Shown: positions 40,121 to 51,294, numbered from the stretch's first letter. The stretch is DNA of 64,000 nt from Elusimicrobia bacterium RIFCSPLOWO2_02_FULL_39_32 (GCA_001800135.1 MGUU01000025.1:62001-126000), one strand, 5' to 3'. Notes: generated by a model from the letters alone, not told the origin. Program-made: numbers and translations.

Positions 40121-42064
40121 CTAACGGCTGCTCAGCTCATGCACCATCTCTACTAAAGCTCTTACATTTTCTACCGGTGTTTGCGGAAGAACTCCATGCC
40201 CAAGATTAAAGATATGGCCATTTCTAGATTTGGCTTCTTCTAAAATTCTTTTAGTTTGTTCTCGAATTGTCTTATGATCAGACAAAAGCACCAGGGGATC
40301 TAAATTCCCTTGGAGTGCGACTGAACCTAACTGATCCCAACTCTTTCCCAAATCTACTCTCCAATCTAGACCCATCACCTGACCTCCAGCCTCTTTCATT
40401 AATTCTAAAAGAGCCCCTGTATCCGTGCCAAAATGGATCATGGGTGTGGTGGATGGCAAAGATGAAAAGAGTTTTTTCATGTGAGGAAAAACAAAAGTTT
40501 TATAATCTTGAGGAGACAAACAACCCACCCAACTGTCAAAAATCTGCACAGCTTGCACCCCTGACTTAATCTGCCCAAGAATGTAAGCAATGGAAGAGTC
40601 CGTCACTTTACTCATCAGCTGGTTCCAAGCTTTATAATCTCGATACATGAATGACTTTGTATGCAAATAATTTTCTGAAGATTTTCCCTCAACCATATAA
40701 GAGACCACAGTAAAAGGGGCGCCGGCAAAACCAATGAGCGGTATTTTTGAATTTAGGTGAGACCGTATTTTTTTAATCGCTTCAAAAACAAAGCCAAGAG
40801 ATTCTTCTGGCTTAACAATCGGCAAATTTTCCACAGCTTCTTCTGTGCGCACAGGACGATAAATCAAAGGACCATCCCCTTTGGCATATTCTAAACCCAC
40901 TCCCATGGGTTCTAAAATTAAAAGAATATCGGAAAAAAGAATAGCTGCATCCACCCCTAATTTCTCCTGAGCTGTTACTGTCACTTCGCAAGCAAGATCT
41001 GAATTTTTGCAAAGATCTAAAAATTTTACTTTTGACCTTAGTTCTCTATATTCCTTCATGTAACGCCCTGCTTGACGCATGATCCAAATCGGGGTGTAGC
41101 TTGAAGGTTCTAAGCGACATGCCTTCATAAAAGCGCTTTCTTTACAAAGATCTCCACTATAGAGTTTGATCGGATAAATTTTAACTTCTATTTTTTTATG
41201 ATCTTTTTGCCAAGATTTTCTCTTCTCTTCCAAAAGAGCTGGACAGACTAAGGATGCTTCCTTTACAAAAAGTCCCATCTTGGATTCTTTGGATTCAAAG
41301 TCTATGGGCAGCCCGCTTTCCTTTAGATTTTCTGAAACAATCGGGCCAATGGATCCAACCACCATCCGATCCAAAGATTCTCTAAAAGAACTTTCTAAAC
41401 CCTCTTCACTAGCAACTTCTAAAACATTATAAATTTGTGTGGCATTCGTAAACAATAGAATATCTGTATTACCGTCGCACACGTCAAAAATCGCTTTTTT
41501 TAAAAGAGAAAGGTCTTCTGGCAATGCCCAGCGATAGACAGGCACACGGCTAACATGCGCTCCTCTTTTTTTTAGTTCCTTAATAAATTCTTGATTTTGT
41601 ATGCCATATTCCTGCACAAAAACTTTTTTTTCTTTAATTGAAATTTTTTGATCTAAGATGGATAGAACCTCGCGCCAGGTATTGGGTTCTGGCGCGCAAA
41701 TGGCAGGAGTGATTCCCATTTCTTTTAAAGCTAAGACTGGTTTAGGGCCTCTAGCCACAAGAACTGTTTTTGCAAATGAAGCTAAAAAAGTTTCCCTAGG
41801 GATCTCTTTTTCAATCACCTGTAGAAGAAAACGGGTGCCAACTCCAGTCATTAAAATCACAATTTCAGCTTTGCCTTGCACCACTTTTTTGCCAAATTCA
41901 AGCGCTTCCTGATTTAATTCAAAAGGAATTTCTCTCATGGAAGGAGCTATGGTAGCCCTCCCTCCATAGCGTGTCAGCAAGCTCTGCATTTCATAAGCCC
42001 TGCGGCTTTCAAAGCTTGTAACTTTAAGTCCTGAAAAATTTCCCTCTTTATTCTCTTGGTTCAT
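40121..42064 (-). CDS. hemE: Fused uroporphyrinogen-III synthase (HemD) and uroporphyrinogen decarboxylase (HemE)
   Basis: 647 residues. Residues ~10-265 are HemD-like: LKVTSFESRRAYEMQSLL, IVILMTGVGTRFLLQVI, VARGPKPVLALKEMG, VPVYRWALPED and DILLFTNATQIYNVLE. Residues ~300-647 are HemE: KACRLEPSSYTPIWIMRQAG with the RQAGRYM substrate loop, AAILFSDILLILEPMGVGLE, LIGFAGAPFTVVSYM, FDSWVGCLSP, HFGTDTGALL and NLGHGVLPQTPVENV. The fusion would close hydroxymethylbilane and decarboxylate the product in one polypeptide. The TTG at 42085 lies inside the promoter, so the ATG at 42064 is taken; the transcript would be leaderless. Confidence 0.92.
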   Translation of the reverse strand: MNQENKEGNFSGLKVTSFESRRAYEMQSLLTRYGGRATIAPSMREIPFELNQEALEFGKKVVQGKAEIVILMTGVGTRFLLQVIEKEIPRETFLASFAKTVLVARGPKPVLALKEMGITPAICAPEPNTWREVLSILDQKISIKEKKVFVQEYGIQNQEFIKELKKRGAHVSRVPVYRWALPEDLSLLKKAIFDVCDGNTDILLFTNATQIYNVLEVASEEGLESSFRESLDRMVVGSIGPIVSENLKESGLPIDFESKESKMGLFVKEASLVCPALLEEKRKSWQKDHKKIEVKIYPIKLYSGDLCKESAFMKACRLEPSSYTPIWIMRQAGRYMKEYRELRSKVKFLDLCKNSDLACEVTVTAQEKLGVDAAILFSDILLILEPMGVGLEYAKGDGPLIYRPVRTEEAVENLPIVKPEESLGFVFEAIKKIRSHLNSKIPLIGFAGAPFTVVSYMVEGKSSENYLHTKSFMYRDYKAWNQLMSKVTDSSIAYILGQIKSGVQAVQIFDSWVGCLSPQDYKTFVFPHMKKLFSSLPSTTPMIHFGTDTGALLELMKEAGGQVMGLDWRVDLGKSWDQLGSVALQGNLDPLVLLSDHKTIREQTKRILEEAKSRNGHIFNLGHGVLPQTPVENVRALVEMVHELSSR

Positions 42065-42073
42065 TTTTGTCTG

Positions 42074-42102
42074 ATCATAGAACAAGAAACCAAATTAGTC
42101 AA
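42074..42102 (-). promoter_or_regulatory. hemDE promoter TTGACT-17-TATGAT
   Basis: Minus strand TTGACT (42102-42097), 17 nt, TATGAT (42079-42074), ending 9 nt before the ATG. The leader would be 0-3 nt long. Confidence 0.65.
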
Positions 42103-42203: not shown

Positions 42204-43370
42204 ATGAAAAAAATATTTTGTGTCTTTGGAACCAGACCAGAAGCGATTAAAATCTCCCCTATTCTTAAAATTTTAAAAAAAGAAAAAGACAAATTTAACC
42301 TTAAAGTTTGCGTCACAGCCCAGCATCGGGAAATGTTAGACCCTTATTTAAAGTTTTTTGGCATCACGCCTCATTATGATCTAAACATCATGGAAGATCG
42401 CCAGTCTTTAGAGGAACTCTCTCACAATCTCTTATCCCGAATTCCCTCTATTTTAAAAAAAGAAAACCCGGATTTGACTTTAGTCCAAGGAGATACCTCC
42501 ACAGCCTTTTTAGCTGCTTTAAGCTCATTTTATCTTAAAATTCCTGTGGCTCATGTTGAAGCTGGCTTAAGAACCTATAACTACTCTCAACCTTTTCCAG
42601 AAGAAGCTAATAGAAGATTAATTGACGCATTAAGCATTTTACATTTTGCCCCAACCCTGCAGTCTAAAACCAATCTTTTAAAAGAAGGTTTTTCTGCCAA
42701 AACTATTTTTGTTACTGGCAATAGCGGGATTGACGCGCTTAAAAGCGTTACGCAAAATCCTCAAAATTTTAAAAATCCATTTTTGAAAAAATTTTTCAAT
42801 TCCAAACCTAAAAAAGAGGCCTTTAAAACAATTTTGGTAACAGCTCACAGAAGAGAAAATTTTGGCGAGCCTTTAAGACAGCTCTGTTTAGCTTTAAAAA
42901 GCATAGCAGATTCTTTTAACCAAGTTTTTATTTTTTATCCAGTGCATCTTAATCCCAATGTTGCTTCTACGGTAAAAAAAATCTTAAAAGACCAAACGAA
43001 AATTTTTCTTCTACCCCCTTTAGAATATAGTGATTTTACCTGCCTTTTAAAAAAATCTTGGGCTCTTGTGACAGATTCCGGAGGGTTGCAGGAAGAAGCT
43101 CCAACCCTTGGGATCCCAACGCTGGTCTTAAGAAAAATTACAGAGCGGCCAGAAGCAGTTCAAACAGGAAGCGTAAAGGTGATAGGAACTGAAAAAGAAA
43201 ATATAATAGCTGAAATTAGCAAATTAATTAAAAATAAAAACAGCTATCAAAAGATGGCTAAGGTTTCCCATCCCTATGGAGATGGAGAAGCTGCGCAAAG
43301 AATAGTGAATGCTCTTTTATTTTACTTCAACTATAAAAAAAATCGTCCTAAAGATTTTAATCCTGAATGA
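42204..43370 (+). CDS. wecB: UDP-N-acetylglucosamine 2-epimerase (non-hydrolysing)
   Basis: 388 residues. Signatures: FGTRPEAIKISPIL, VCVTAQHREMLD, VQGDTSTAF, HVEAGLRTYNY, FPEEANRRLIDAL, FVTGNSGIDAL, LVTAHRRENFG, VTDSGGLQEEAPTLG and RKITERPEAVQTGSVKVIG. It makes UDP-ManNAc for surface polysaccharide. The ATG is 6 nt after a TAATAT box with an upstream TG and has no Shine-Dalgarno. Its 3' end overlaps the large repeat-protein gene by 4 nt (ATGA), tying that gene to envelope polysaccharide synthesis by position. Confidence 0.95.
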   Translation: MKKIFCVFGTRPEAIKISPILKILKKEKDKFNLKVCVTAQHREMLDPYLKFFGITPHYDLNIMEDRQSLEELSHNLLSRIPSILKKENPDLTLVQGDTSTAFLAALSSFYLKIPVAHVEAGLRTYNYSQPFPEEANRRLIDALSILHFAPTLQSKTNLLKEGFSAKTIFVTGNSGIDALKSVTQNPQNFKNPFLKKFFNSKPKKEAFKTILVTAHRRENFGEPLRQLCLALKSIADSFNQVFIFYPVHLNPNVASTVKKILKDQTKIFLLPPLEYSDFTCLLKKSWALVTDSGGLQEEAPTLGIPTLVLRKITERPEAVQTGSVKVIGTEKENIIAEISKLIKNKNSYQKMAKVSHPYGDGEAAQRIVNALLFYFNYKKNRPKDFNPE

Positions 43371-46312
43371 CCCCTCAGAACCAAAATTGGATTCAAGGAA
43401 TTCGTCTCGATTCTCACAGCCAATATCGGTTTTTGGGGAAACGGCTTTTATGCCTTTCCCTTCTTTTGTTTACTTGCCTTACACCTCTTCATTCTGCTCC
43501 TTCTCATTTTAGACTGCCGCCCTTATTTTGGTACGAATCAGAGCCCATGGAAGACCGCTCTTTTTTAATGACCCTCCTCATATATTGGAGGGGAAAAGAT
43601 CGAGAAAGCCTTTTCAATCTTTTTGCGCCATTTTATTATGATTTTCAAAGTGAAAAAGATAAAGTCAGGGTGCTTTTGCCAATTCACTTTTATCGCCAGA
43701 CGGAAGATAAAAGTCTATTTCTTCTTGGGCCCTATTTTTCAAAAAGATCTATTTCTGAACAAACAAAATTCATTTTCCCAATTTTTTTTAAAAGCGAGGA
43801 TGAAAAATTAAAATCAAAACTTATTTTCCCGTTCTATTGGTCATTTCAATCTTTAACGCCAGAAAAAAAATTACATGAACTTTTATTCCCTTTTTATTTA
43901 AGGGTCAAGGGGGAACAGGATCAAGAAATTTATTCTCCAGTTTTTTGGTCCTATAAAGATTTAAAAAGCTCAAAAGGAATATTGCCCCCTTTTTATTGGA
44001 AACTTACAGAATCTTCTAAAACTCAAATTGGTTTTCCTCTTTATTGGAGATTTTTCAAAAAAGATCCTGAATTAAAAGATTTTGAGATCGCATTTCCTTG
44101 GATCTATCTTCGTTCTGGAAATAACAGCTTTAGAACCTTTGTGCCCCTCTACTGGGGTAGAACTAAAGAGGAAAAAGGAGAATGGAACCTATTTTTCCCT
44201 TTGCTCTTTCAGTCTGAAGATAAGAATGGCAACAATAAATTAATCACTCCTATTTTTAGCCGTTTTAAAGATGAGAATGGAAGAATCTGGGGACACACGG
44301 GACTTAATTTTTTTTCAAAAGAGCCTTGGGGAGGAAAATCAGAAATTTTTTTTCCCTTTTTATATTACAGGGGAGAACCGGATTTTTTTAAATTAAGATG
44401 CCTCTCTTTTTATCTGGAACGTCATGCTGACCAAAAGCGCATGGAAACTTCTCTCCTGCCTTTAGTTCGATATCGTAGAGACTTTGACCGCAAACAAATC
44501 TTTATTTTAGGTTTTTACCGCGACAAGGATCCAGAAGTCCACCGAGGTTTTTTGTTAAACTATTTTTGGAGAAAGGAAACCTCCTTAAGAAACAATTCCC
44601 CTGCCTTACAAAAACATATTCTTTTCCCAATTTTTTGGACCGTGCGCTCAGAAGATCAAAAAACCACAATTCTTCCTCCTTTGTTCGCTACCCATGAAAA
44701 AGAAGATTTCAGATTTTCTCTTTTGACCCCTTTGATTTTCCAAATAAAAAAAGGAGAGGAGACTTTTACAACCTTTTTTCCAGCCTATATGCAGAGATCC
44801 GTGCCTGAACGCTCCTGGACAACACACTTTTTTCTCTTATGGCATCTTCAAAAAGGGAAAAAGGCGATTGCCAGTTTATTCCCGATTTATCGCAGAGCCA
44901 GTTTCCCCAATGGTTCTAGTCTCCTTTTACCCGGCTTTTATTACCTTAAAGAGGGAAAAGAAACTCAAGGTTTTATTTTTCCCTATTTTTGGGATAAAAG
45001 AGGTCCTACCCAATACCAATTCTTCCCGCCATTCTATTACCAATTCTCAAGACCCAGTTGGGGGTTAAAAAGTTTATTTCCCATTTATAAATTCGAGAAT
45101 CAGGAAATTAAAGAAACCGGTCTTTTTCCTTTTTGGGCAAGGACAAAGTCTAAAGGGCCGGAACATTTTCTGGCCAACTCTCACAGATTCCTTCCATTCT
45201 ATTTTTATAGAAAAGTTCCTAATGGCACTGATCTGTGGATGCCATTTTTGTTAGCGCGTTTTGAGAAAGAAATCAGCGAAGAAAACCAAAAAACCATTCG
45301 CGGCAGATTGTTTTTATTAAGCTATTGGCAGAGATCCGAAAAAGCTTCTTTAACCCGGCTAGACCCTATTTTTTCTTTTTATCGCACCCCAAATAGTAAA
45401 GGATTTGTAATGCCCACAGCTCCATTTCCCCTTTGGAAATATGAAGTAAAAGGGGCAAAAAAAGAGGAACAAATCGTAGAAGGCACTTTTTTTCCCTATT
45501 TTTGGAGAAGGAGTCCTGCTTTAAGAAAAAATCTATTTTTCCCTATATATTATTCAAAGAAAAAAATGTCTGAAGAGTCCTTGAAAGAAGTTTCAGAGGT
45601 ACGATGGTTTTTAGCTTACTTCTCAAGCTCCAATGAATTGGAACAAAAAAGAAAAACATTTTTCTTTCCTCTCTATTGGTATTTTGCGGAAAAAGAAAAG
45701 TCAATTCAGGTTTTAATTCCTTACTGGAGAGAAAGAGAGCCCCAGTTATCTCGAGACATTTTTTTCCCTGTTTGGTGGCATTCCCAAAAAAAGGAATCCA
45801 AAACATCAGTTTTTTTCCCGATTTTTTATAAGGCTTATCAGGCAGATTTAAAAGAAAAAACTATTTTTTTCCCTGGGTTTTGGGTTCGAAAAAGCCCGGA
45901 AAGTTCCTCATTGCTTTTTCTAAATTTTTTACAAAAAAGTTCAAATAAAACCAAAGAAAAAACAACATTTTTCTTTCCCCTTTACTGGCAGGAGTCTGAA
46001 CCTAAAAAAAGTAGCGCTTATCTTTTTCCTTTATATTTTAAATATACAAAGGAACATTTTCATTCTAAGATATTCTTTCCTTTATATTGGAGGTTTGAAG
46101 GAGTGGATACCTCCATTCAGATTGTACCCCCCTATTTTAAAGTTTATTCTAAACAAGATGAGGAAAGCACAACTGGATTTGCTCCCTTGTGGACCTATAG
46201 TCATAATCGTTTAAAGACTGCTAAAAGTTTTCAGCTTTTGGGTGGGCTTATGGGAATTGAAAAAAAAGAAGGAAAGACTAAATTTACTTTACTTTATTTT
46301 TTAAAAATTTAA
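43367..46312 (+). CDS. Exported giant repeat protein with ~50 'FFPLYW' aromatic repeats
   Basis: 981 residues, family not recognised. A signal peptide is likely at about residues 24-45 (KRLLCLSLLLFTCLTPLHSA). From residue ~50 to the end the protein is built of about 50 degenerate units of 18-22 residues, each with a core like [FL]FP[LIFP][YF][WY] (IFPFYW, LPPFYW, GFPLYWRF, FVPLYW, FFPYFW, FFPVWW, FFPLYWRF) followed by a charged turn (Lys, Glu, Asp, Gly). There are hardly any Cys residues after the signal and no catalytic motif. Regular strand-turn units of this length suggest a beta-rich fold such as a barrel or solenoid. Coupling to wecB suggests an outer-envelope role. The 3' end overlaps rluD by 29 nt. 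Confidence 0.8.
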   Translation: MTPQNQNWIQGIRLDSHSQYRFLGKRLLCLSLLLFTCLTPLHSAPSHFRLPPLFWYESEPMEDRSFLMTLLIYWRGKDRESLFNLFAPFYYDFQSEKDKVRVLLPIHFYRQTEDKSLFLLGPYFSKRSISEQTKFIFPIFFKSEDEKLKSKLIFPFYWSFQSLTPEKKLHELLFPFYLRVKGEQDQEIYSPVFWSYKDLKSSKGILPPFYWKLTESSKTQIGFPLYWRFFKKDPELKDFEIAFPWIYLRSGNNSFRTFVPLYWGRTKEEKGEWNLFFPLLFQSEDKNGNNKLITPIFSRFKDENGRIWGHTGLNFFSKEPWGGKSEIFFPFLYYRGEPDFFKLRCLSFYLERHADQKRMETSLLPLVRYRRDFDRKQIFILGFYRDKDPEVHRGFLLNYFWRKETSLRNNSPALQKHILFPIFWTVRSEDQKTTILPPLFATHEKEDFRFSLLTPLIFQIKKGEETFTTFFPAYMQRSVPERSWTTHFFLLWHLQKGKKAIASLFPIYRRASFPNGSSLLLPGFYYLKEGKETQGFIFPYFWDKRGPTQYQFFPPFYYQFSRPSWGLKSLFPIYKFENQEIKETGLFPFWARTKSKGPEHFLANSHRFLPFYFYRKVPNGTDLWMPFLLARFEKEISEENQKTIRGRLFLLSYWQRSEKASLTRLDPIFSFYRTPNSKGFVMPTAPFPLWKYEVKGAKKEEQIVEGTFFPYFWRRSPALRKNLFFPIYYSKKKMSEESLKEVSEVRWFLAYFSSSNELEQKRKTFFFPLYWYFAEKEKSIQVLIPYWREREPQLSRDIFFPVWWHSQKKESKTSVFFPIFYKAYQADLKEKTIFFPGFWVRKSPESSSLLFLNFLQKSSNKTKEKTTFFFPLYWQESEPKKSSAYLFPLYFKYTKEHFHSKIFFPLYWRFEGVDTSIQIVPPYFKVYSKQDEESTTGFAPLWTYSHNRLKTAKSFQLLGGLMGIEKKEGKTKFTLLYFLKI

Positions 46313-47219
46313 GAGTCTGCAAGAAATCTTTTGGCAGCGGAGCTTCAAACTGAATCCATTTTCTTGAAACAGGATGTTCAATTTTAAGACGAAACGCATG
46401 CAGCATCTGGCGCGGAACATTTTGATCTTCTATCCCATAAAGGGTATCCCCTAAAATCGGGTTTCCGATCTTAGAGAAATGAAGCCGTATCTGATGAGTT
46501 CTGCCTGTCTGCGGATAAACCTCAATATAGGAATGTTCAGGAAAAAGTTTTAAAACCTTAAATTCTGTGCGGGCAAACTTCCCCTGAGGTTGAAGATCCA
46601 TTTTATTAGAATGATACGCTCTGCCAATGGATCCTTCAATTTCCCCTTTTAAAACTTTTAAGCGACCTGTAGTAATCGCGCGATATACTTTCTTAACTTT
46701 CCTATCTTTAAATTGTTCAGAAAGCAATTTTTGACTTAAAAAAGTCTTTGCCACCACCAACACCCCAGAAGTTTCTTTATCTAACCGGTGCACTAACCCA
46801 AGCCTAAGTCCCTCAGCTCCTTGTGACTCATGATCTAAAAACAGTTCACTTTTATTTTGTTTTAAATGATATGCGATCCCATTAGCTAACGTGTGATCTC
46901 TGTGACCTTTTGCCGGGTGCGTCACGATCCCAGCTGATTTATTAATCACAAGAATCGCTTTATCTTCATAAATAATTTTTAAAGGAATGGGTTCTGCTGC
47001 AAGCGTTAATTCTTCTTCAACTGTTTTTCCAGAAATGTTTTCATCCCCTTTTAAACGAAGAGCTGAACGTCCCTTTTTTTGATTCACCAAAATCACTCCC
47101 TGCTCAATCCAATATTGAATTTTGCTGCGGGAGAAATCAGGAATCTTTTCCTTAAGAAACTGATCTAATCTTTTATCTCGGTCTTCTAATTGAGCGTTAA
47201 AGCTAAAGGCATTCATCAT
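46284..47219 (-). CDS. rluD: Ribosomal large-subunit pseudouridine synthase, RluD family
   Basis: 311 residues. An N-terminal S4 domain (KRLDQFLKEKIPDFSRSKIQ, GVILVNQKKG) precedes the RsuA/RluA-type catalytic domain with the nucleophilic Asp in GLVHRLDKETSGVLVVAK and further blocks INKSAGIVTHPAKG, KKVYRAITTGRL and PQTGRTHQIRLHF. The S4 plus RluA layout fits RluD (23S positions 1911/1915/1917 in E. coli). The start is one of two adjacent ATG codons. Confidence 0.93.
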   Translation of the reverse strand: MMNAFSFNAQLEDRDKRLDQFLKEKIPDFSRSKIQYWIEQGVILVNQKKGRSALRLKGDENISGKTVEEELTLAAEPIPLKIIYEDKAILVINKSAGIVTHPAKGHRDHTLANGIAYHLKQNKSELFLDHESQGAEGLRLGLVHRLDKETSGVLVVAKTFLSQKLLSEQFKDRKVKKVYRAITTGRLKVLKGEIEGSIGRAYHSNKMDLQPQGKFARTEFKVLKLFPEHSYIEVYPQTGRTHQIRLHFSKIGNPILGDTLYGIEDQNVPRQMLHAFRLKIEHPVSRKWIQFEAPLPKDFLQTLKFLKNKVK

Positions 47220-47277: not shown

Positions 47278-47335
47278 TTGAACAAACAACACATCTCGTG
47301 ACTGCATGACATATTTTAAAAAGGAAGTCTTTAAA

Positions 47336-47728
47336 ATGCATCGCAGAAAAAAGATTCTAATCGTAGAAGAAGATCCTAAAAACATCGAGGTTATTAAAAA
47401 AACTTTAGAGCAGGATAAGTATGAGCACATGGAAGCTTTTACCGCTGAAGATGCGCTGGAGCTTTTAGAAAGAGAAGAGGTTGACCTTGTCATTTGTCAC
47501 ACCCAGTTAGTGGGCATGAGCGGCACAGATTTCCTTGCGGAATTGCATAATTGGGACATTGAGCTTCCTGTAATTTTAACATCCAATGGCGGCACCAAGG
47601 AAAAGGATTGGTTAAACGCGCTGCAATCTCAAGCTTTTGACATGATCGCAAGGCCCATTCATAAAGATCATCTTCTTAAAGCCGTGCATAAAGCTCTTCA
47701 TAAAAAAGAAGTATTGGCCGCATCTTAA
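47336..47728 (+). CDS. Stand-alone receiver domain lacking the phosphoacceptor Asp
   Basis: 130 residues covering a single CheY-like domain. The acidic pocket is kept (IVEEDPKN, E11/E12/D13), and the Thr in VILTSNG is present, but the phosphoacceptor position reads His55 (LVICHTQLVGMSG) instead of Asp, and the conserved Lys before Pro is Arg106 (IARPIHK). It therefore cannot be phosphorylated in the normal way and is probably a pseudo-receiver used for protein contacts. The ATG at 47336 has AAGGAAG upstream; a start at 47306 is possible but sits before that site. No kinase is nearby. Confidence 0.85.
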   Translation: MHRRKKILIVEEDPKNIEVIKKTLEQDKYEHMEAFTAEDALELLEREEVDLVICHTQLVGMSGTDFLAELHNWDIELPVILTSNGGTKEKDWLNALQSQAFDMIARPIHKDHLLKAVHKALHKKEVLAAS

Positions 47729-47769: not shown

Positions 47770-50700
47770 TTAAAGAGGGACAAGCTTCCATGATTTCTCC
47801 CCGCACATGCCTTTTAATCCTGTTAAAAGCTCCTCTGTAATTTTTACTTTTATCTTTGGATCTAGAGAAAACTCTCCGTGGTTAGGGGTAGAAAGCAAAA
47901 ATTGCACAGGGCAATGACCATTATTTTTATGCAGAAATTTTTTTAAATCTTCCAGAGACGTATCCTCTAATCCCGCAGTGTTGATGTGAAGTACCATTTT
48001 TTTTACTAAACTTTCCCGGGCTTTTTCTAAAGATAAAATTTCTTCCACAATCAGTTCTTGAATCTCCTCTTTCCCTGAACGATTTAAACGCCCGGAAACC
48101 ACCACCATTTGATTGATGGCAATCAGTTTAGAAAGCCCTCCTGCATAAGATTTGGGAAATACCACACAATCCATCTCACCTTCTAAATCTTCTAGTTTAA
48201 ATCGCGCGTAGGGCACTTGCTGCTTTTTAGAAATGAGCCTCCTTACATTTTCTATAATACCAGCCACACGCACTCGCCCGCTTGCTTGGCCGTTGTTTCC
48301 TACTTGAGCTAAAGAGGCAGTGGCATAAAAGCTAAGTTCATCTTTAAATTTTGCTAATGGATGGCCAGAAAAATAAAAACCCAGCACCTCTTTTTCAAAA
48401 GAGAGCAATTCATGTTCATGCCATTCTGGAATATTTGAAACGAGTTCACTCGGGTTTTCTTGAGATGTAATTTGCAAAGATTCAAAAAGGGAAGCTTGTC
48501 CTATTATCTGATCGTCCCTTAATTTGGAAGTGAACTGTAATATTTTCTCAAGAGAACCAGCCATTTGAGCGCGAGTTCTTGTATTAGGTTCGCCTACAAA
48601 ATCAAAAGCGCCGGCTTTAATTAAGGATTCAATGACTTTTTTATTCACACCTTTAGTGTCAACTTTTTGGCAAAAATCTTGCAAAGAACAATAAGGCTCT
48701 TTTTCTCTTTCCCTTACAATAGCTTCAGCCGCGCCTTCCCCCACATTTTTTACCGCAGAAAGGCCAAAGATGATCTTTGTCTCTTTCCCCTTCCCAATCA
48801 AACTAAAATGAGTAGAAGAATTTTGCACATTAGGCGGAAGCACTTCAATATCCAAAGACTGCGTATCCTGAATATATTCCACCATTTTGTTGCCTTCTTC
48901 TTTGGCAAAGGAAGAATGGCCAATCACAGAAGAAATTAAAGAAACCATATATTCATGCGGATAGTTCGCTTTCAAATATGCGGTTTGATACGCCAAAAGG
49001 CCATAAGCCGTGGCATGAGACTTATTAAATCCATACCCTCCGAAATGTTCTATTTGAGCAAAAATCTTCTCAGCAATTTTTAAATCAATCCCTTTGTTTT
49101 TAGCTCCCTCCAAAAAACTCTGTTTAAGTTTAGTGATCTCTTCCGGAATTTTTTTTCCCATCGCTTTTCTTAAAACATCAGCCTGTCCTGCGGAAAAACC
49201 GGCAATCACTCTTGAAATTTGCATGACCTGCTCTTGATAAACAATAATCCCATAAGTTTCTTTAACAATTGGCACAATGCTAGGGTGATCATATTTCACT
49301 TTAGAATGAGCGTGTCTTCTAGCCACAAAATCATCCAGCATGCCGCTGCCCATGGGACCCGGACGATAAAGAGAAACCAGAGCGATAATATCTTCTAAAC
49401 TATCTGGTTTTAATTTGCGCAGCAGATCTCTCATGCCAGAAGACTCCAGCTGAAAAATGCCAATGGTTTTTGCTTCACTTAAAAATTTAAAAGTTTTTGG
49501 ATCATCCAAAGGAATTTTTGTTAAATCGAATTCAGGGTCATGCCGTTTTTGCACCCAGGATTCTGCATTCTTTAAAACTGTAAGGGTTCTTAAACCCAAA
49601 AAATCCATTTTAAGAACCCCTAACTTTAAAAGGCTGTCATCATTGTACTGAGTGGTAATGACATCTTTACTGCCTTGGGCTACCGGAATATAATGAGTAA
49701 TGTCCTGATTTTCCTGGGTTGGCACAATCACAATGCCAGCGGCATGCACCCCGGTATGGCGTTTTAAACCTTCCAGCCTTTGTGAAACATCCAATAACTT
49801 TTTTACATCCGGACTGTTTTGGTAAAGGTTTTTAAGTTCTGGCACCTGTTTTAAAGCTGAAGAGATTGTGATTCCTATCTCTTTTGGAATCATTTTCGCG
49901 ATCCTGTCGCATTCTTGTAAAGGCATTTCCAATACTCTTCCCACATCTCTAACCACAAGACGCGCGAGCATGGAACCAAAGGTAATAATTTGCGCCACAG
50001 AATCGTTTCCGTATTTTTTTCTCACATATTGAATGACTTTTTCCCGGCCTTCATCAGAAAAATCTATGTCCAGGTCTGGCATGGTTCTTCTGTCTGGATT
50101 TAAAAAACGCTCAAATAAAAGACCGTATTTTAAAGGATCAATGTCTGTAATGCCCAGAGAGTAGCTCACTAAACTACCCGCTCCTGAACCTCTTCCCGGC
50201 CCAACCGGAACCCCTTCTTTTTTAGCAAAACTTACAAAATCCCAAACAATCAAAAAGTAAGCTGAAAACCCCATGCGTTTGATCACAGCCAGTTCTTCTT
50301 CTAATCTGCTTTTATATGCAGGCAACATCTGCCCAAACCTTTTTCGGATTCCGTCCATACAGAGTTTCTCTAGATAAGAATCCATGGTTTCCCCTTGAGG
50401 CACCTGATATTGAGGAAGAAGAATCCTGTCGAATTTAATTTCCAAATTACAGTGGGAAGCTATTTCTATGGTGGAATGGAGCGCTTGGGGAACTTCTGAA
50501 AAAAGTTTTTCCATTTCTTGCGGACTTTTATAATAGAATTCTTCAGATGCATAACGCATGCGGTTGCTTTCACTCACAACTTTACCTGTGCCAATGCAAA
50601 GCAACACATCGTGAGCGAATGCATCCTCTTTTTTAAAGTAATGGCAATCATTGGTAGCTACTAAAGGGATCCCTGTTTTCTGGGAAAGTTCCGTTAATGT

Positions 50701-51294
50701 CCGATCTACCTTTTTTTGAGCCTCAATTCCATGATCCATGATTTCTAAATAGAAATTCCCTTTGCCAAATATCTCCTGATATTTGCCTGCAAGTTCCAAA
50801 GTTTGGTCTGATTTTTCTTGCAAAATAGTCTCCGCGATTTTTCCTTTTAAGCAGCCGGACAAAGCAATTAAACCTTCATGATATTTTTCCAAAATTTCCC
50901 AGTCTATGCGAGGTTTATAATAAAACCCTTCCAGATAAGAAATAGAGGTAAGTTTCATTAAATTTTCATACCCTTTTTCATTTTTAGCTAAAAGGGTCAG
51001 ATGGTTATTGGATGTGGAGAGGGTTCCGGATCGGTCGTTTCTTAATTTTGGAGCCACATAGGCTTCCATGCCAATAATGGGTTTAATGCCTTCAGTCTGA
51101 CAAGATTTATAGAATTCTATGGCGCCAAAAATATTCCCATGGTCTGTCATGGCTAAAGCCGGCATTTTTTGGGCAGCAACAAATTTAATTAGTTCTGAGG
51201 GTTTACCGCGATCATCCGTAATTCTGCAGGCTCCATCCAAAAGGGAATATTCAGAATGGGCATGCAAATGTACAAACTGCGAGTGATTAGGCAT
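47770..51294 (-). CDS. dnaE: DNA polymerase III subunit alpha
   Basis: 1174 residues, the length of DnaE1-type polymerases. An N-terminal PHP domain begins HLHAHSEYSLLDGACR and has AMTDHGNIFGA. The polymerase core has GPGRGSGAGSLVSY and the catalytic Asp pair in PDLDIDFSDEGR, followed by the fingers region with VYQEQVMQI and GYGFNKSHATAYGLLAYQTA. A helix-hairpin-helix and an OB-fold (RVRVAGIIENVRRLISKK) complete it. It is the replicative polymerase catalytic subunit. It seems monocistronic or follows the rmlD-like gene. Confidence 0.97.
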   Translation of the reverse strand: MPNHSQFVHLHAHSEYSLLDGACRITDDRGKPSELIKFVAAQKMPALAMTDHGNIFGAIEFYKSCQTEGIKPIIGMEAYVAPKLRNDRSGTLSTSNNHLTLLAKNEKGYENLMKLTSISYLEGFYYKPRIDWEILEKYHEGLIALSGCLKGKIAETILQEKSDQTLELAGKYQEIFGKGNFYLEIMDHGIEAQKKVDRTLTELSQKTGIPLVATNDCHYFKKEDAFAHDVLLCIGTGKVVSESNRMRYASEEFYYKSPQEMEKLFSEVPQALHSTIEIASHCNLEIKFDRILLPQYQVPQGETMDSYLEKLCMDGIRKRFGQMLPAYKSRLEEELAVIKRMGFSAYFLIVWDFVSFAKKEGVPVGPGRGSGAGSLVSYSLGITDIDPLKYGLLFERFLNPDRRTMPDLDIDFSDEGREKVIQYVRKKYGNDSVAQIITFGSMLARLVVRDVGRVLEMPLQECDRIAKMIPKEIGITISSALKQVPELKNLYQNSPDVKKLLDVSQRLEGLKRHTGVHAAGIVIVPTQENQDITHYIPVAQGSKDVITTQYNDDSLLKLGVLKMDFLGLRTLTVLKNAESWVQKRHDPEFDLTKIPLDDPKTFKFLSEAKTIGIFQLESSGMRDLLRKLKPDSLEDIIALVSLYRPGPMGSGMLDDFVARRHAHSKVKYDHPSIVPIVKETYGIIVYQEQVMQISRVIAGFSAGQADVLRKAMGKKIPEEITKLKQSFLEGAKNKGIDLKIAEKIFAQIEHFGGYGFNKSHATAYGLLAYQTAYLKANYPHEYMVSLISSVIGHSSFAKEEGNKMVEYIQDTQSLDIEVLPPNVQNSSTHFSLIGKGKETKIIFGLSAVKNVGEGAAEAIVREREKEPYCSLQDFCQKVDTKGVNKKVIESLIKAGAFDFVGEPNTRTRAQMAGSLEKILQFTSKLRDDQIIGQASLFESLQITSQENPSELVSNIPEWHEHELLSFEKEVLGFYFSGHPLAKFKDELSFYATASLAQVGNNGQASGRVRVAGIIENVRRLISKKQQVPYARFKLEDLEGEMDCVVFPKSYAGGLSKLIAINQMVVVSGRLNRSGKEEIQELIVEEILSLEKARESLVKKMVLHINTAGLEDTSLEDLKKFLHKNNGHCPVQFLLSTPNHGEFSLDPKIKVKITEELLTGLKGMCGEKSWKLVPL

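Follow-up and report, generated by a model that had tools for sequence, protein, structure and literature searches.

What kind of protein is encoded directly downstream of wecB in a groundwater Elusimicrobia bacterium, and what could a chain consisting almost entirely of short aromatic units do for the cell that exports it? The ORF in question (43367–46312, +; 981 aa) lies in a window of 64,000 nt, the whole stretch of DNA analysed here, and is present as a single copy in the genome. Coordinates and translation bear out the position and length given in an earlier note made from the sequence alone, as well as the 4-nt coupling to wecB that it described: the ATG at 43367 shares ATGA with the wecB stop at 43370. 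At the other end, 29 nt (46284–46312) are shared with the 3′ end of a convergent rluD-type gene (Table 1). The N-terminus reads as a signal peptide, with a basic n-region ending in FLGKR, then hydrophobic LLCLSLLLFTCL, and cleavage likely near HSA/PS. Homologs also carry classic signal peptides (ending e.g. ARA-EE, ASA-EE, AQA-VE), in agreement with the exported protein proposed earlier.

Table 1 Features of the repeat gene and its neighbours (positions in the window).
Feature	Position	Strand	Basis
wecB, UDP-GlcNAc 2-epimerase	42204–43370	+	TIGR00236, 451 bits vs cut-off 210; Pfam PF02350
Signal peptide region, residues 1–44	43367–43498	+	sequence reading
Conserved N-terminal unit, residues 45–65, HFRLPPLFWYESEP...	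43499–43561	+	alignments
Array of putative beta-strand units 2–50, residues 66–935	43562–46171	+	segmentation, period 17.35 aa
Five-unit segment, residues 865–949, modelled as five long strands	45959–46213	+	AlphaFold2
Conserved C-terminal cap, residues 936–981, TGFAPLW...FQLLGGLMGIEKKEGKTKFTLLYFLKI	46172–46309	+	alignments
RluD-type pseudouridine synthase, convergent	46284–47219	-	Pfam PF00849 and PF01479; conserved neighbour
Receiver-domain (response-regulator-like) protein	47306–47728	+	sequence; conserved neighbour
dnaE, DNA polymerase III alpha	47770–51294	-	sequence; conserved neighbour

Tokenising divides the mature chain into 53 degenerate units (mean 17.9 aa, mostly 16–17) centred on h-h-F-P-L-Y-W. 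A dynamic-programming segmentation, independent of the tokenising, recovered these 53 cores and made one further, spurious call within the signal peptide; by automatic segmentation the modal unit spacing is 17, then 16 (range 15–25). The hydrophobicity spectrum has one dominant period (17.35 aa, 62.7 times mean power), power in the 14–24 aa band is 132 (mean 27 and maximum 45 in 2000 shuffles), and the motif h-P-h-h-h occurs 24 times (1.8 expected; shuffle maximum 7). The repeat is therefore real, and the earlier count of about 50 aromatic-core units was close, whereas the unit length of 18–22 residues given with it is too long. The array follows the consensus (R/K/S/T)xx(V/L/I)(L/F)(F)P(L/I/F)(Y/F)(W/Y/F)(R)x(R/K/S)(S)(P/D/E)(D/E/G). 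It is preceded by the N-terminal unit, in which R49, P51, P52, W55 and E57 are invariant across 12 aligned homologs, and followed by the C-terminal cap, with alternating hydrophobics in its last strand (F-9, L-7, Y-5, L-3, I-1). The window protein ends in YFLKI; an F or W terminus is found instead in several distant members (e.g. FLWLF, YLWVF; also WVF, FWF, WLF).

Purifying selection acts on the repeat ORF: compared with its orthologue in an Elusimicrobia groundwater MAG (L023; 91% identical), dN/dS is 0.19, similar to the values for wecB (0.13) and rluD (0.16) in the same comparison. Homologs are present in 15 of the 41 nearest genomes, and a profile search of the phylum found matches in 22 of 341 Elusimicrobiota genomes (one marginal), all from the same class; about 20 of the 341 carry full-length homologs with first and last units conserved. 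No relative was found in the plasmids and phages searched or in two viral-contig scans. Nearer homologs align end to end at 24–44% identity, with the first unit (RLPPLFWYE) and the C-terminal cap (QLLGGLFG...LLYFF) best conserved; invariant columns of the 12-homolog alignment are mainly P, W, G, F and Y, with no enzyme-like conserved polar residues. By automatic segmentation the unit number varies from 37 to 60 among homologs, and several length differences correspond to alignment gaps about one or two units long. A distant 1209-residue member (L078:6417-10043, +) contains long near-identical internal blocks in several copies (e.g. SDRLFPFYSYG..GKTGETH.GALLY..), which suggests that several units were recently duplicated in tandem.

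The order wecB, repeat gene, rluD, receiver protein, dnaE, including the convergent arrangement of the repeat gene and rluD, is kept in the nearest family at about 42% identity, in full on contigs that are long enough, while two cut contigs show the parts that they contain. The wecB/repeat junction in relatives is a 1-nt overlap or a gap of about 5 nt, and in two nearest-family relatives a WecA-type glycosyltransferase gene lies directly upstream of wecB. The search of close genomes suggested in the earlier note thus found the gene conserved within a clade and in its place beside wecB. Beyond the nearest family the repeat gene lies elsewhere, away from wecB, so that the link to cell-surface sugar synthesis drawn earlier holds in that family but not in the rest of the phylum, and a glycan role may not be general. 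In f6 relatives (L031:1212-3663, L033:217-3571) the genes upstream of the repeat gene are divergent and take the place of wecB; among them are those for an LPP20-type putative lipoprotein (L033) and a shared C-x-SPRAL protein. Elsewhere in the window (40121–42085, -), a 654-residue ORF fuses HemD (uroporphyrinogen-III synthase; PF02602 at 32–271) and HemE (uroporphyrinogen decarboxylase; PF01208 at 316–650), and adjoins ORFs resembling hemH and hemG.

The view that no named repeat family fits has to be revised: NCBIfam NF047486 (LA_1737_Cterm) passes its cut-off with the repeat protein (62.1 bits whole-protein, cut-off 60; E 5.5e-17) and matches 11 of the 12 members of alignment A1 and three of five distant forms. 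Neither a reversed copy nor a copy shuffled inside each core was matched, so the match is not due to composition alone and unit sequence is shared. The score is a sum of weak stretches: single genomic places reach 8–15 bits (<16), none over the cut-off, and the best stretch covers model positions 15–62 of 158, none spanning the 158-position domain. Because of this partial coverage the protein is filed as related to LA_1737 through its repeat unit, by a weak link, and not as a proven member; the match also lacks the conserved Elusimicrobia C-terminal cap. Pfam contains no family for the window protein at E up to 1, and none for its relatives. The strong match to an existing family that the earlier note had set against a new repeat is thus only weakly approached, by LA_1737. 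NF047486 is named after a Leptospira locus and its entry gives no function; a paper search for LA_1737 or FPLYW motifs returned only unrelated text matches and, in the library covered, no paper on the family.

A fold with one strand per unit and neighbouring units antiparallel is moderately supported. A full-length AlphaFold2 model, from an alignment of two near-identical rows, carries no confidence (pLDDT 27.5), whereas the five-unit segment was modelled as five strands, one per unit and about 11–14 residues each (2–14, 17–30, 35–47, 51–64, 72–82; pLDDT 61.2). The input for the latter was a self-offset alignment (A4) of five-unit runs from the same protein and L023, built from non-overlapping runs; MAFFT lines overlapping self-offset rows up on themselves. 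Foldseek comparison of this model with PDB folds returned five-stranded antiparallel meanders (CapZ, TM about 0.7), none at a significant E-value; a PDB-sequence search found no similarity to any solved structure, and a viral fold library gave no significant match. Opposite-charge coupling between adjacent units is strongest at a+b=0 (+k vs -k; z -3.5, p 0.001, best of 9 offsets, under a null that shuffles orthologous unit positions jointly and keeps relatedness), next at offset -2 and slight at odd offsets; this corresponds to an antiparallel hairpin whose prolines face each other. With one representative for each of six subfamilies the coupling is weak (z -1.8, p 0.03), so this register evidence is moderate; a pooled z of -6.6, inflated by relatedness, was discarded in favour of these relatedness-controlled tests. 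A beta-propeller or other multi-strand super-repeat was also rejected: correlation at lag 3 or 4 is not consistent, and the lack of a consistent three- or four-unit super-repeat argues against propeller blades. The all-beta fold proposed earlier therefore gains from the five-unit strands and the charge register, but not from the full-length model.

The strands differ from the alternating hydrophobic/polar pattern first read into them. Both faces of the seven-residue core (positions -3 to +3) are hydrophobic (the odd-minus-even difference is 0.08 and positive in 55% of 949 units), and the units are not amphipathic in the sense of one lipid-facing and one polar face. Position +2 is aromatic in 75% of units; between -2 and +2 charged residues hardly occur, and they become frequent from |k| of 4 outward. 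The net charge comes to +48 for the mature chain and lies between +18 and +57 in every homolog. An extended strand measures about 3.3 Å per residue, and seven residues roughly 23 Å, close to the outer-membrane core. The turns on both sides are short and do not clearly alternate in length; outer-membrane barrels usually alternate short periplasmic turns with long outer loops. In water-filled barrels the lumen face is polar. A band hydrophobic on both faces would be odd there, and suggests lipid, apolar cargo or sheet packing inside.

We tentatively favour a very large antiparallel beta meander, forming a sheet or a barrel, that BAM assembles in the outer membrane and that serves a surface glycan dependent on wecB. 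The protein would be exported by Sec and then folded into the outer membrane by BAM as a structural protein of 53 single-strand units, each contributing a strand of about 11–13 residues and a short charged turn; adjacent units would pair antiparallel, prolines opposite, giving one continuous meander as in outer-membrane barrels. The roughly 7-residue aromatic band would match the thickness of the membrane, the basic turns would lie among the lipid head groups on either side, and the sheet would be capped or closed by its conserved first and last units. Given its coding as a pair coupled with wecB, the protein would most likely help to display, anchor or export a surface glycan that contains ManNAc and depends on wecB. 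Signal peptides across homologs, three Omp85 (BamA-type) matches in the genome, and the terminal strands of several distant members, in which hydrophobics alternate up to a final F or W as in the C-terminal BAM signal, are consistent with this assembly, as are the unit and period statistics, the five modelled strands, the a+b=0 register, and charge that is rare at the core, frequent beyond ±4 and strongly positive in sum. The glycan part draws on the conserved wecB junction and the upstream WecA-type gene in two relatives, and is weakened by the position of the gene outside the nearest family. Against the favoured explanation stand the full-length pLDDT, the non-amphipathic core, the turns without alternation, the ...LKI terminus of the window protein and the weak coupling among representatives. 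A special form, a single-chain transmembrane ring of about 53 strands acting as corral or lateral conduit for wecB-dependent outer-membrane glycolipids, is quite improbable: its lumen band would be as hydrophobic as the outside and would enclose lipid or lipid-linked glycan, not water, and we know of no barrel as large.

The same hydrophobic faces and short turns would also suit a water-soluble beta shell or solenoid, in the periplasm or at the surface (cf. YD-repeat cocoons), in which the meander is rolled with one hydrophobic face inside to hold or scaffold cargo or glycan. Free variation from 37 to 60 units would be tolerated better by a solenoid than by a barrel, but the two-faced 7-residue band leaves one face in water unless sheets stack, Pfam gives no RHS/YD or solenoid match, and the C-terminal strands of distant members resemble an outer-membrane signal; we consider this arrangement possible, if doubtful. 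Whole-unit length variation also fits a protein that coats the surface or forms a matrix there, as fibres or sheets, and whose basic strands would bind an anionic surface polysaccharide made through wecB and stiffen the envelope. The net charge, the coupling with wecB and the lack of enzyme-like conserved polar residues fit such a coat, which is nevertheless unlikely, as the protein shows no known signal for sorting or anchoring, clades without linked wecB keep it, and the strictly conserved units at either end point to a defined assembly, not an indefinite fibre. That the sequence is a low-complexity aromatic chain without ordered fold, or a composition artefact, would agree with the full-length pLDDT, a value obtained from two near-identical rows only. 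It is very hard to reconcile with the dN/dS, about 25% identity end to end across the class with invariant P, W and G columns, the register-specific charge coupling, the ordered strands of the five-unit model, and an LA_1737 match lost upon reversal or core shuffling.

YD/Rhs, MORN and WG repeats are short beta repeats of roughly 17–33 residues with aromatic positions and charged turns. The units described here share these traits but differ in their proline-centred FPLYW core, and none of the three families has a Pfam match in the window protein or its homologs at E up to 0.1–1. Among giant outer-membrane beta-barrels, SprA has 36 strands (PMC10994853) and LptD is stated to have 26 (PMC11494523). 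Like the repeat protein as proposed here, they are exported, with long antiparallel strands, short turns and a conserved last strand, but they are non-repetitive, whereas the repeat protein has 53 near-equivalent units hydrophobic on both faces; neither these nor other solved structures resemble it in sequence. GfcD, with 12 + 13 strands in two barrels and a middle domain, is an exporter proposed for lipid-anchored group 4 capsule (PMC11494523). The proposed passing or anchoring of surface polysaccharide at the outer membrane and the coding with polysaccharide genes are common to both proteins, but the repeat protein has a uniform repeat instead of two barrels and no sequence match to GfcD.

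If the strand-per-unit meander is true, the protein would comprise about 50 near-equivalent strands and its length would evolve by gain and loss of whole strands, a natural test of the limits of size and repetitiveness for beta sheets that are shell-like or assembled by BAM. The unstudied LA_1737 family, which reaches from Leptospira to Elusimicrobiota, would in addition gain a structural description.
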